Below are positions 1,244 through 5,549 of a stretch of 52,019 nucleotides of DNA, one piece after another; within the stretch, counting starts at the first letter, position 1; every line of letters begins with the position of its first letter. Location: contig JADFQA010000023.1 of NCBI GenBank assembly GCA_022562055.1, positions 1-52,019 on the forward strand. The letters are read 5' to 3'. A program made the position numbers and the translations under genes. The stretch comes from Acidobacteriota bacterium (GTDB lineage: Bacteria > Actinomycetota > Acidimicrobiia > Spongiisociales > UBA5794). The notes beneath the pieces were generated by a model that saw only the letters and a list, made by a program, of their open reading frames with translations, ran no database searches and was not told the origin of the DNA.

Positions 1244-1795
1244 CTAGGCGTCGGGAATCCAGGTTTCTAGGGGGACGCCTAGTCCGTGGGCCATTCGGTT
1301 CACGTATGCGAAGTAGCTAGTTACTTCTGCAATGTGGAGAATGTCGACGTCGCTGAACCCGCTGTCACGAAGAGCCCGGACATCGGTCTCGACCAAATCC
1401 GCAGGGTGCAGAGTGAGCTTGACTGCGTACGTCAGCATCGCAAGACGCGGCTCGCTGAGGTCCGACGCCGTCCAGTCAGCCTCGATACTTTTCAGCAGTT
1501 CGTCATCTTTGAGGAGGCGGCGCAGACCGCGCCGGTGGTGGGTTACTCAGTAGTGACACCCGTTTGTCTGGCTGATGACCAGCGCGATCAGTTCGCGCTC
1601 AACCTTGCGCAGCGTCTTTGTGCCAGACATCGCAGAGTTGTACAGGGCGAGGTGCGCATTGAGGCCCTTGGGGTCGAGCGAGTGGATCGCCATGATCTCG
1701 TCAACCCGACCGTAGGCCTTATCGACAACCGCGCCGTGCAACTCGCCGAGTTCGCCATCCCATTCGTCGTCGGGGATCGTCTCTATCCATGCCAC
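1244..1795 (-). CDS. AhpD-like peroxidase-related selenoprotein (CxxU), in-frame TGA read as Sec
   Basis: Two apparent fragments (ending at TGA 1549-1547 and restarting downstream) lie in the same frame, with 36 open codons between them. Read through, they give one 183-residue protein of the AhpD/carboxymuconolactone decarboxylase family, a normal length for peroxidase-related members. The TGA is codon 83, exactly where relatives have the second Cys of the redox motif: NGCHY-U-VTHH, with Cys80. A SECIS-like hairpin follows. I chose GTG 1795 (VAWIETIPDDEW...) because AGAAGGA lies about 8 bases upstream and this matches where the family begins; a longer GTG start exists at 1882. The family carries out thiol-based peroxide or disulfide chemistry; the physiological substrate is unknown. 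The gene is divergent from aconitase X. AhpD-like selenoproteins are known as a class, so decoding here is well supported, but selABCD lie outside the window. Confidence 0.85.
1518..1549 (-). promoter_or_regulatory. Candidate bacterial SECIS element with the UGA codon it recodes
   Basis: The UGA is at 1549-1547. After 18 bases comes the apical loop GGUCU (1528-1524), closed by a perfect 6-bp stem CGGCGC/GCGCCG (1534-1529 with 1523-1518). The E. coli fdhF SECIS, as I recall it, also has 18 bases between UGA and a GGUC(U) loop, and the loop G and U are what SelB contacts. The stem lacks an obvious bulged U on the 5' side, which differs from fdhF. The hairpin lies inside the coding sequence, as bacterial SECIS elements do. 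Confidence 0.8.
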
Positions 1796-1882
1796 TACTT
1801 GTTCCTTCTCTTCACGGTCGGATGGTACTTGTCGCCGAATTTCGGTGCCTGATGTGGTGATAATGACCGCTAAGGTCGACAC

Positions 1883-3151
1883 GTGGACCTTGTACTCACT
1901 GACTCCGACCGGGCAGCGCTAGCCGGTGAATTCGGACCGGGCAGAGCGTTAGCGATGCGGATTGTTACCCGGGTAGCGCATGCGATGGGTGCGGAAAAGC
2001 TGCTCGACATCACCGGTGCTCACATCGATTCGTGTCTTGATCATGGTCAGGCTGGCATCGACTTCGCGCAAGGGCTCACTGAAGGCGGTAGTCGCGTGCG
2101 CGTTCCGACAACGCTCAACGTCGCCTCGCTCGATCTGCTGCATCCTGACTTATACCGGGGTCCGATAGAGACTGCGACCCGAGCACGACGCCTGATGCAG
2201 TACTACGAGGACATGGGATGCCAGCCGACGTGGACATGCGCCCCCTACCAGCTCAGTGTGCGGCCGGTGTTCGGCGCCCATGTTGCCTGGGCCGAGTCGA
2301 ATGCGATCGTGTTCGCGAACTCGGTGCTTGGGGCTCGCACCCATCGGTATGGGGACTTTATCGACATCTGCGCGGCCATCACCGGTCGTGCCCCTGCTGC
2401 GGGTCTTCACCTCGATCAAAACCGTGTCGCCAACGTCATCATCGACGTGAGCGCACTGTCGCAGCGTCTGTTGAACGTCGACGTCTTCTACCAGGTGCTC
2501 GGCCAGCTAATAGGGGGACGAGTCGGGTCGCGGGTGCCTGTGATTGTTGGGTTGCCGCCCGGTGTTAGCGAGGACCGGCTCAAGGCGATCGGAGCGGCAG
2601 CCGCGTCATCGGGATCGGTTGGGATGTTCCACTGCGTCGGTAGCACACCCGAGGCCCCCGATCTGGCAACGGCTGGTGGAGGCAGAATTCCTCCGCAGCG
2701 GATAGTGGTGGATGCCGAGATGATCCGCAACTCCCGCGATGACCTGAGCACGTCGACCAGCACAAAGCTTGGAATTGTTAGCCTCGGAACGCCCCACTAC
2801 TCACTGGCAGAGTTTGAACGCTTGATCGAGCTTCTGGGTGACCGTCGAATCCATCCCTCGGTCGATTTTTATGTCTCGACGGGGCGTGAAGTGCTGGAAG
2901 ACGTGCAACGCAGGGGATGGCTCGATCGGCTTGAGGATGCCGGGGTCCAGCTTGTCACCGACACATGTACCTACGTGACATCCGTCATGGCCGAGCGGAG
3001 TGGCGTCGCCATGACAGACTCTGCAAAATGGGCGTACTACGCCCCGGGGAACATTGGTGTCGAAGTCGTGTTTGGTGCGACCAGCGATTGTGTTGAATCG
3101 GCGATTGCCGGTCGTGTCGTCCGCGACGACTCTGTGTGGGGACAGCGATGA
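1883..3151 (+). CDS. Aconitase X large (catalytic) subunit, DUF521
   Basis: This is a 422-residue AcnX/DUF521 protein. Family signatures are visible: Cys119 in CAPYQLSVRP, then HVAWAESNAIVFANSVLGAR with its conserved acid and Asn residues, AAITGRAP, the second Cys362 in DTCTYVTS, and the KWAYYAPGN loop at about 382-390. AcnX enzymes are [Fe-S] hydro-lyases. Characterised bacterial members include cis-3-hydroxy-L-proline dehydratases and archaeal ones mevalonate-5-phosphate dehydratases, so a dehydratase role is likely but the substrate is open. The GTG start at 1883 has a weak AAGG about seven bases upstream. It overlaps the small subunit by four bases (ATGA) and is divergent from the AhpD-like selenoprotein gene with an 87-base gap. 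Confidence 0.9.
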   Translation: MDLVLTDSDRAALAGEFGPGRALAMRIVTRVAHAMGAEKLLDITGAHIDSCLDHGQAGIDFAQGLTEGGSRVRVPTTLNVASLDLLHPDLYRGPIETATRARRLMQYYEDMGCQPTWTCAPYQLSVRPVFGAHVAWAESNAIVFANSVLGARTHRYGDFIDICAAITGRAPAAGLHLDQNRVANVIIDVSALSQRLLNVDVFYQVLGQLIGGRVGSRVPVIVGLPPGVSEDRLKAIGAAAASSGSVGMFHCVGSTPEAPDLATAGGGRIPPQRIVVDAEMIRNSRDDLSTSTSTKLGIVSLGTPHYSLAEFERLIELLGDRRIHPSVDFYVSTGREVLEDVQRRGWLDRLEDAGVQLVTDTCTYVTSVMAERSGVAMTDSAKWAYYAPGNIGVEVVFGATSDCVESAIAGRVVRDDSVWGQR

Positions 3152-3582
3152 CTCCGTCTCGATCGTCAATCCCGGGTCGGTCGTTGTCGCCGGGAACCGC
3201 GGAAGGAATCGTGCTCAGGCTTGACGAACCGCTGAGTTTTTGGGGCGGGCTTGATGCAGAGACAGGCGAGATCGTCGACCGACGACATCCTCAGGTCGGC
3301 GTCAACGTTACGGGGACCATTCTCGTGATGGAGCGCGGACGGGGATCAAGCTCAGGCTCATCGGTTTTCGCTGAGGCGATCAGAAACGGAACCGCTCCCT
3401 CTGCGATCGTGATGGCTGAACTGGATGAGATTGTCGCCCTCGGCGCGATAGTGGCCGACGAGATCTACGGAATCAAGGTCCCTGTAGTTGTAGTCAGTCC
3501 GAGCGATCACAGTCTGCTGATCGACGGCAGTGCGATTCGAGTCTCGGCATCCGTTGACACTGCCACGGTTCACGCACCGTGA
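3148..3582 (+). CDS. Aconitase X small (swivel) subunit, DUF126
   Basis: The 144-residue protein matches the DUF126 swivelling domain that completes the AcnX active site: an opening GRSLSPGTAEGIVLRLDEPLS strand region, a Gly/Ser-rich GRGSSSGSSVFAEAIRNGTAPSAIV segment, and a C-terminal IDGSAIRVSA. Split large/small subunits are common in bacteria and archaea. I place the start at ATG 3148, which overlaps the large-subunit stop as ATGA and implies translational coupling. A GTG at 3136 would add four residues. It must act with the preceding gene product, so it is a dehydratase subunit rather than an independent enzyme. Confidence 0.88.
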   Translation: MTPSRSSIPGRSLSPGTAEGIVLRLDEPLSFWGGLDAETGEIVDRRHPQVGVNVTGTILVMERGRGSSSGSSVFAEAIRNGTAPSAIVMAELDEIVALGAIVADEIYGIKVPVVVVSPSDHSLLIDGSAIRVSASVDTATVHAP

Positions 3583-3660: not shown

Positions 3661-4356
3661 TCACACCTCGGTCACGCAGTCTTCGCCGAGAGCCGTGTGT
3701 GGGGTAACTGATGCGGAGGTTTTCATGTTGACCGCATCCATCAACCCGTTGACGATGCCCTCATCGAGCCTGCACACAAACTTTGGGTGGTTGATCGCGG
3801 TCATGCCGAACGGACACAGGCTCGTGATCAGCTTGTTCCCATCCACCACAGTGGTGTGGAACCCGGCGCCCATCATCGCCTTCGCCACGGCCTCGACAGC
3901 ACCCTGGTAGCCGATGTCGCTGGGGAGTCCGACCTCTAGGGCGAGCTGAGCTCCGTATTCGCGGCCGACCTCTTCAGCAGCCTTCGCCGCGGTCTCGGGT
4001 GCCACCCGTTCAAGGACCTGAGCAAGCAATTCGGAGAGAAGCTCGTAACGACGGCCAGGGAACTGCACCTGTACTTGTTTCTGAGTCGCCTCGTAGTACT
4101 TGGCCGGGCGTCCAGCTCCAGGTTCGGAACGTCCGTCGGGTCGTTTGCGCGTCACCTGGAGGTAGCCACCGGTAACGAGCCGGTCGAGGTGATGGCGTGC
4201 CACGTTGGGGTGGATGTCAAACAGTTCGGAGGTCTCGCTTGCAGTCACCGGGTCCGCGGCTTCGCGGATTGAGATGTAGATTCCGCGCCGGGTGGCATCG
4301 CCAAGCGATCCAGTCAATTCACTGATCTCTTTGTCAAAAACATCAGCGTTCAACAT
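3661..4356 (-). CDS. sufR: SufR-like Fe-S-sensing ArsR/MarR-type transcription regulator
   Basis: This 231-residue protein has an N-terminal winged helix-turn-helix (ATRRGIYISIREAADPVTASETSELFDIHPNVARHHLDRLV, with a GRPAKYYE wing) and a C-terminal domain with three cysteines: Cys181 (CPFGM), Cys195 (HPKFVC) and Cys227. Their spacing of 14 and 32 resembles the three Fe-S ligands of SufR, which represses suf genes when its cluster is intact. The ATG at 4356 is preceded by GGAGG. The gene is divergent from the Mrp Fe-S carrier, which fits control of Fe-S assembly. No suf operon lies next to it here, so the symbol rests on domain pattern. Confidence 0.72.
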   Translation of the reverse strand: MLNADVFDKEISELTGSLGDATRRGIYISIREAADPVTASETSELFDIHPNVARHHLDRLVTGGYLQVTRKRPDGRSEPGAGRPAKYYEATQKQVQVQFPGRRYELLSELLAQVLERVAPETAAKAAEEVGREYGAQLALEVGLPSDIGYQGAVEAVAKAMMGAGFHTTVVDGNKLITSLCPFGMTAINHPKFVCRLDEGIVNGLMDAVNMKTSASVTPHTALGEDCVTEV

Positions 4357-4388
4357 CGTGCACCTCCTTCGGGATCTCAGGGTAGCAA

Positions 4389-4410
4389 CGTTCACTATTC
4401 TATTCACTAC
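4389..4410. promoter_or_regulatory. Candidate SufR-type operator in the sufR/mrp divergent region
   Basis: The 65-77 base spacer between the two divergent starts contains a direct repeat TTCACTA (4391-4397 and 4402-4408) with an 11-base period, about one helix turn. It lies inside a wider weak inverted repeat, GGTAG (4381) with CTACC (4407). The position between the two genes suits a regulator that controls itself and mrp. Only the pattern supports this. Confidence 0.35.
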
Positions 4411-4433
4411 CGAGATAGGAGATGGAGGATGGC

Positions 4434-5549
4434 GTGGTCGATACCGAAGCGGTGAAGTCCGCTGTAGGCAGAGTTCAAGATCCCGAGATACACCACTCTC
4501 TCGATGCTCTAAAGATGATCCGATCGGTTGACGTGACAACCGGCGGTGATGTTCGGGTCACTGTTGCTCTCACGGGTTCTGGGTATGCAATGGAAGCTGA
4601 GCTCACGGCCGCGATCACAGGCGCGACCGCATCAGTTGAAGGTGTTGGAAAAGTCACGGTTAGCTTTGAATTCATGACCGACGCCGAACGTGCCGAGGTT
4701 GTCGCGCTCGTACGCGGTGGTTCCGCGTCTGAGACTCCGAGCGTCCGAGAGATCCCCTTTGCGAAGGCTGGCAACCGGACTCGGATTATCACCATCTCGT
4801 CCGGAAAAGGTGGTGTCGGAAAAAGTTCTGTCACAGCAAACCTTGCTGTTGCACTGTCCAAGCTTGGCAAGCGAGTCGGGATCATCGACGCTGATGTTTG
4901 GGGTTTCTCCATTCCGAAGATGCTCGGCATCGACCGGGCGCCCAACGTTGTAGACGACCTTCTTGTGCCCCCATCGGCGTATGGCGTTGCGGTCATGTCA
5001 ATGGACTATTTCGTCCCCGCCGACCAAGCCGTTATTTGGCGGGGGCCGATGCTGCACAAGGCAATGGAGCAGTTCTTGATGGATGTCGTGTGGGGGGACC
5101 CCGACTATCTGTTGATCGATCTGCCTCCGGGTACCGGCGATATCTCGATTTCTCTGTCGCAATTCTTGCCGCGTGCGACGGCGATCATCGTGACCACTCC
5201 GCAGGTCACCGCACAGCGTGTTGCAAAACGTGCGGGTCTCATGGCCAACAAAGTAAACCAAGAGATCATCGGCATCGTCGAGAACATGTCGTGGTTCATC
5301 GGTAATGACGGCGAGCGTTACGAGATCTTCGGCTCTGGAGGAGGAGAGGCGCTGGCGAAGGAGTTGGACGTACCGCTGCTCGCCAAGGTGCCGCTCGTAC
5401 TGGAAATGCGAATCGGCGCGGACGAAGGTAAGCCGGTGATGGTGGTCGATCCGGACGGCGAGGCCGCTGCGGCATTTGTGGCGCTTGCGAAAGAAGTCGA
5501 AGCTCGCCAGCCGCGGCTACGCTCGCATCCAGAACTGGTTATTTCGTAG
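4434..5549 (+). CDS. Mrp/ApbC-family Fe-S cluster carrier ATPase with N-terminal DUF59 domain
   Basis: The N-terminal 80 or so residues are a DUF59/MIP18 domain (VQDPEIHHSLDALKMIRSV). The rest is an Mrp/NBP35 ATPase with a deviant Walker A, SSGKGGVGKSSVTANLA (about 121-137), followed by GIIDADVWGFSIPKMLG, the switch region LIDLPPGTGDI and IVENMSW. The family transfers [4Fe-4S] clusters to apoproteins in the cytoplasm. The CxxC of many members is not obvious. GTG 4434 is preferred because GGAGG (4424-4428) lies five bases upstream; ATG 4422 in the same frame is the alternative. It is divergent from a SufR-like regulator and upstream of DUF3107. Confidence 0.9.
   Translation: MVDTEAVKSAVGRVQDPEIHHSLDALKMIRSVDVTTGGDVRVTVALTGSGYAMEAELTAAITGATASVEGVGKVTVSFEFMTDAERAEVVALVRGGSASETPSVREIPFAKAGNRTRIITISSGKGGVGKSSVTANLAVALSKLGKRVGIIDADVWGFSIPKMLGIDRAPNVVDDLLVPPSAYGVAVMSMDYFVPADQAVIWRGPMLHKAMEQFLMDVVWGDPDYLLIDLPPGTGDISISLSQFLPRATAIIVTTPQVTAQRVAKRAGLMANKVNQEIIGIVENMSWFIGNDGERYEIFGSGGGEALAKELDVPLLAKVPLVLEMRIGADEGKPVMVVDPDGEAAAAFVALAKEVEARQPRLRSHPELVIS

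Follow-up and report, generated by a model that had tools for sequence, protein, structure and literature searches.

The window, as we call the whole stretch of 52,019 nt analyzed here, belongs to a draft genome of 2.93 Mb (97% complete, 83 contigs) and contains the following features around an AhpD-like gene interrupted by an in-frame TGA:

1244–1795, minus strand: gene for a predicted AhpD-like (TIGR01926) selenoprotein of 183 aa, with GTG start and TAG stop, delimited by translation, profile scores and alignment of the start with those of relatives.
1547–1549, minus strand: in-frame TGA, predicted selenocysteine (Sec, U) at residue 83, second position of the CxxU motif (C80-H-Y-U83); TGA in 63 of the 64 closest orthologue loci and TTA in one.
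1518–1534, minus strand: SECIS-type hairpin CGGCGC-GGUCU-GCGCCG, with a 6 bp stem and the loop GGUCU at 1528–1524, supported by a synonymous null, covariation and a covariance model.
1803–1807, minus strand: AAGGA, likely ribosome-binding site 7 nt before the GTG start, from inspection of the sequence.
1883–3582, plus strand: aconitase X large subunit (1883–3151) and swivel (3136–3582) genes, divergent neighbours of the AhpD-like gene, identified by Pfam and synteny.
3661–4539, minus strand: HTH_20 (ArsR-like) regulator, identified by Pfam and synteny, with a provisional start codon.
4422–5549, plus strand: Mrp/ApbC-type Fe-S carrier P-loop ATPase, divergent from the HTH_20 regulator, identified by domain search and synteny.

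Translation of the minus strand from 1795 to 1244 with TGA read as U produced 183 residues, with a sole in-frame TGA at codon 83 (1549–1547) and a terminal TAG, and the GTG start at 1795 lines up with the ATG or GTG starts of relatives. A mechanical ORF caller (table 11) splits this gene into two frames, 1882–1547 (111 aa) and 1438–1244 (64 aa). This is the outcome foreseen in the first-pass annotation, which had joined two such fragments through the TGA into one full-length AhpD-family protein and placed the TGA at the second cysteine of the redox CxxC; the continuous translation, its match to TIGR01926 and the motif C80-H-Y-U83 bear this out. The word "hidden" used there is a fair one as regards an ordinary gene caller; the family itself is already catalogued as a selenoprotein family, which makes the gene less surprising than that annotation held.

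The deduced product matched TIGR01926 (AhpD-like, peroxidase-related) over nearly its whole length and across the TGA with 136.8 bits (curated cut-off, 81.8), as well as TIGR00778, the AhpD core domain (43.4 bits; cut-off, 27.8), and the Pfam family CMD (51.8 bits; cut-off, 23). It contains the active-site pattern E-x11-C-x2-C/U-x3-H, formed by E68, C80, U83 and H87. An AlphaFold2 model obtained from 19 sequences, with C substituted for U, showed a confident, all-helical AhpD fold (pLDDT 92.8, pTM 0.88). The best PDB match by Foldseek was 3c1l (TM 0.80–0.84), and the solved structures matched best were 3c1l, 2prr, 2pfx, 6k40 and 2oyo (TM about 0.8–0.87), to which sequence comparison also points.

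We compared the gene across a set of 149 genomes, its own included, taking homologs with 53% identity or more as the closest orthologue group. Members of this group with exactly one TGA, at the equivalent of codon 83, were found in 59 genomes spread over several families, and one more genome has TTA (Leu) at this position; distant homologs have TGC or TGT (Cys), or else Sec accompanied by other hairpins. Divergence to either side of the TGA falls mostly at third codon positions. In a tree of 106 homologs, a single branch (SH-aLRT 98) set off the orthologue group, whose 66 rows comprise 65 Sec and 1 Leu. Elsewhere in the phylum, a close match (E up to 1e-25) was retrieved from only 11 of 396 genomes, three of which the first set had included. 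The TTA, at the equivalent of window positions 1549–1547 in genome G029 (locus L029; 79% complete), is accompanied by an intact hairpin and a tRNA-Sec, selA not being found in this genome, and may be either an assembly error or a natural loss of Sec to Leu.

The stem of the hairpin is encoded in the window by Arg-Arg-Gly-Leu-Arg-Arg codons, and the loop begins at offset 21, counted from the U of the UGA, which leaves 18 nt between the UGA and the loop. The likeness to Escherichia coli fdhF noted in the first-pass annotation is exact in this respect, with GGTCT at the identical offset 21 in annotated fdhF genes, whereas the stem sequence and the host protein differ. The consensus model for bacterial SECIS elements (bSECIS) specifies an upper stem of 4–16 bp, a loop of 3–9 nt with a G in its first two bases, a spacing of 16–37 nt and an MFE of at most −7.5 (PMC13188914), and the window hairpin agrees with every one of these rules (6 bp, 5 nt, GG, 18 nt and −11.4 kcal/mol). 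The region had no Rfam match, even with E values up to 1 admitted; according to published work, bacterial SECIS elements share little sequence similarity (PMC13188914). A covariance model, specific to the closest orthologue group and hence uninformative on other selenoproteins, matched positions 1549–1513 with 60 bits, the window sequence being part of its training set; when the window's own genome was scanned with it, only the AhpD-like locus was convincing (next match, 18.4 bits, E 0.08). Since folding of the 71-nt region is no more favourable than that of its dinucleotide shuffles (z −0.22), it is through conservation alone that the hairpin is persuasive.

This conservation is pronounced, the loop being GGUCU in 62 of the 64 orthologue loci and GGGCU in the other two. 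When the synonymous codons of the window gene were redrawn, 2% of draws contained the complete stem together with GGUCU; of the 64 orthologues, 53 have this combination, whereas 2000 simulations that kept the protein averaged 1.2 such genes and never exceeded 5, and the hairpin is therefore not a by-product of an Arg-rich peptide. Among 59 distinct TGA sequences, 97.5% of the stem cells were paired, and sliding the register lowered pairing to 18–58%. Cells changed on both sides numbered 17 versus 3.1 in shuffles, with a covariation score of 0.193 versus 0.058; the pair at offsets 17–29 appears among orthologues as G-C, C-G, G-U, U-A and A-U, and that at offsets 20–26 as C-G, U-G and U-A. For the main co-varying pair, parsimony on the tree inferred 8 changes at the 5′ base and 13 at the 3′ base, and an independent-pairs test of these bases on the starred branches yielded two pairs only, both agreeing in most draws but too few to reach significance.

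Other Sec groups of AhpD-like proteins have other hairpins, such as the HLHDLR proteins, with GACCUCC/GGAGGUC-type stems, and L109, L111 and L112, with GGAGCC/GGCUCC. Separate AhpD-like groups are formed by L089–L099, L101–L108, L110 and L135, by L109, L111 and L112, and by L134, L136, L137 and L139; in all of them TGA occupies the same position and the hairpin sequences are unrelated, several genomes hold two, and L137 lacks the first Cys (TAHYU). Two further homologs, L054 (from a record titled Gemmatimonadetes) and L057 (titled proteobacterium), contain TGA, each with its own hairpin, and planctomycete and other homologs (L056, L058, L100, L113–L118 and L138) have Cys.

The genome harbours a complete set of genes for selenocysteine synthesis and insertion, all above curated cut-offs: selA (423.5 bits) and selB (343.2 bits) are adjacent on contig 10, selD is on contig 35 (395 bits) and the tRNA-Sec gene, selC, with a UCA anticodon, on contig 24 (70.7 bits). 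This selD itself contains an in-frame TGA (GAG*GCK), at a position that we take to be the Sec site of SelD selenoproteins. The presence of selA in 118 of the 149 genomes (114 over the curated cut-off) shows that this order of Actinomycetota commonly uses selenocysteine. Among the 65 genomes with a Sec-AhpD gene, 59 had selA, a larger share than the 59 of 84 in the rest (Fisher p 0.002, relatedness ignored). Only G001, G078, G112 and G135 contained the Sec-AhpD gene and neither selA nor tRNA-Sec; all four are draft genomes, and the completeness shown for three of them is 72, 56 and 72%.

Another in-frame TGA was seen on contig 12 of genome G000, which carries two nearly identical tuf (EF-Tu) genes, L004 (54628–55506, minus strand) and L003 (77769–78650, minus strand), with six nucleotide differences over the gene. 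One copy reads VEQ*WLKIAS where the other has VEQGLLKIGS; gene decay or an artefact of assembly is the probable cause, and nothing suggests that this copy encodes a selenoprotein.

Throughout the genus of the window, the AhpD-like gene is divergent from aconitase X: both other genomes likewise have the large-subunit gene next to it, and no such gene was seen at the remaining loci examined. Among these loci, it is in this genus only that the aconitase X genes stand between the AhpD-like gene and the HTH/Mrp pair. Several further genera of the family have the HTH_20 regulator directly upstream of the AhpD-like gene, on the same strand, and divergent from the Mrp-type ATPase. In the window, regulator and ATPase are 2–4 kb from the AhpD-like gene, which is consistent with an insertion of aconitase X between the gene and this pair. 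The regulator/Mrp neighbourhood was not seen in the loci from the order's other families, where flanks were short. The regulator at 3661–4539, which had no NCBIfam match, contains a C-terminal CPFG...C motif that presumably resembles that of SufR-type Fe-S regulators; that the AhpD-like gene has to do with metal or Fe-S stress is no more than a lead.

Together, these results make us highly confident that this is a genuine bacterial selenoprotein gene, in which the UGA at codon 83 would be decoded as Sec. Sec insertion had been proposed in the first-pass annotation, which named the sel genes, the residue at position 83 in homologs and a covariance search of the hairpin among the points to examine; these three agree with the proposal, given that selA, selB, selC and selD are all present, that close homologs keep TGA and distant ones have TGC or TGT, and that compensatory changes preserve the hairpin. 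SelA and SelD would generate Sec-tRNA-Sec, and SelB would bind the GGUCU hairpin just 3′ of the UGA and deliver Sec to codon 83. The product would be an all-helical AhpD-like CxxU redox protein in which the U83 selenol stands where the AhpD CxxC has its second Cys; C80 would be its redox partner, and E68 and H87 would serve as proton relay. Most likely, the protein acts as a peroxidase or reductase of the antioxidant (peroxidase-related) type.

The selenoprotein could instead carry out another reaction, such as a reductive dehalogenation like that of Bmp8, or act as a disulfide adaptor like AhpD in the AhpC system. The Foldseek matches include the debrominase Bmp8 (6ohi/6ohj, TM 0.73–0.80) and AhpD proteins, and in part of the family the neighbours are the HTH regulator and the Mrp Fe-S carrier, not ahpC. 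However, the best structural matches (3c1l, 2prr, 2pfx and 6k40) are peroxidase-related, and none of the neighbouring genes seen is a halogen-pathway gene. We consider these reactions rather unlikely. It is more speculative, and in our view quite improbable, that the orthologue group constitutes a lineage-wide, nearly always Sec-dependent enzyme with its own substrate and partner, and not a generic peroxidase, with G029 as perhaps a natural replacement of Sec by Leu; an example, suggested by the HTH/Mrp neighbourhood of some family members, could be a reductase linked to Fe-S or metal stress.

Explanations that dispense with selenocysteine fared far worse. A Cys-type AhpD gene turned pseudogene by a nonsense mutation, or a sequencing error, might be suspected in a draft assembly where the ORF caller yields two pieces, but independent genomes with the same TGA refute it in practice. 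The same single TGA occurs in 59 genomes across several families, and the protein-type selection on codons downstream of the TGA and the co-varying hairpin also speak against it. Decoding of UGA as another amino acid (e.g., Trp in a variant code) or general stop readthrough would also explain why the frame remains open past the TGA, and is hardly credible when TGA is an ordinary stop in the window (terminating 13 of 28 long open frames), homologs have Cys and not Trp, and the genome offers a SECIS along with the complete Sec machinery. GC-rich genes often have open antisense frames, and the uninterrupted one at 1286–1852 (plus strand, 188 aa), open in many relatives as well, is most improbably the real gene, since it has no Pfam match, whereas the sense frame fits TIGR01926 nearly end to end and has the substitutions at its third codon positions.

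The preferred reading, an AhpD-like selenoprotein, places the window gene within a known family. AhpD-like CxxU selenoproteins were described in 2005 from the Sargasso Sea metagenome (27 sequences, COG2128; PMC1088965) and later from the GOS data as "AhpD-like 1" (299 sequences; PMC2398784), and are catalogued under COG2128 (PMC9312934) and, in a 2026 review, under TIGR01926 (PMC13188914; table entry MCB9421940.1); we assigned the window protein to this family, MCB9421940.1 included, by profile score and motif. In the partial literature collection searched, the few papers that mention selenocysteine together with Acidimicrobi* use either term only one to four times. Recognition of the Sec codon mends the split call of a gene that 59 of the 149 searched genomes contain, and changes no principle.

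In M. tuberculosis AhpD, the proton relay consists of Glu118, Cys130, Cys133 and His137 (PMC3141380), with the same spacing as E68, C80, U83 and H87; the whole-chain fold match to this protein is weak (TM about 0.5), and the window protein scored 19.2 against TIGR00777, AhpD proper, below the cut-off of 191.95. NF041238 (AhpD_rel_CFYUT) is likewise an AhpD-type CxxU selenoprotein family, of which the window protein, far below the cut-off (40.9 versus 175 bits), is not a member. It shares instead family and CxxU motif with the known AhpD-like selenoproteins of COG2128/TIGR01926, whose Cys homologs are widespread, and, its TGA being almost certainly read as Sec, is a well-supported but ordinary further example of them. 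What the present analysis adds is the genome context, with a partly conserved regulator/Mrp neighbourhood and all the Sec machinery, the existence of additional Sec groups, and the deep conservation of the gene throughout an order of Actinomycetota.
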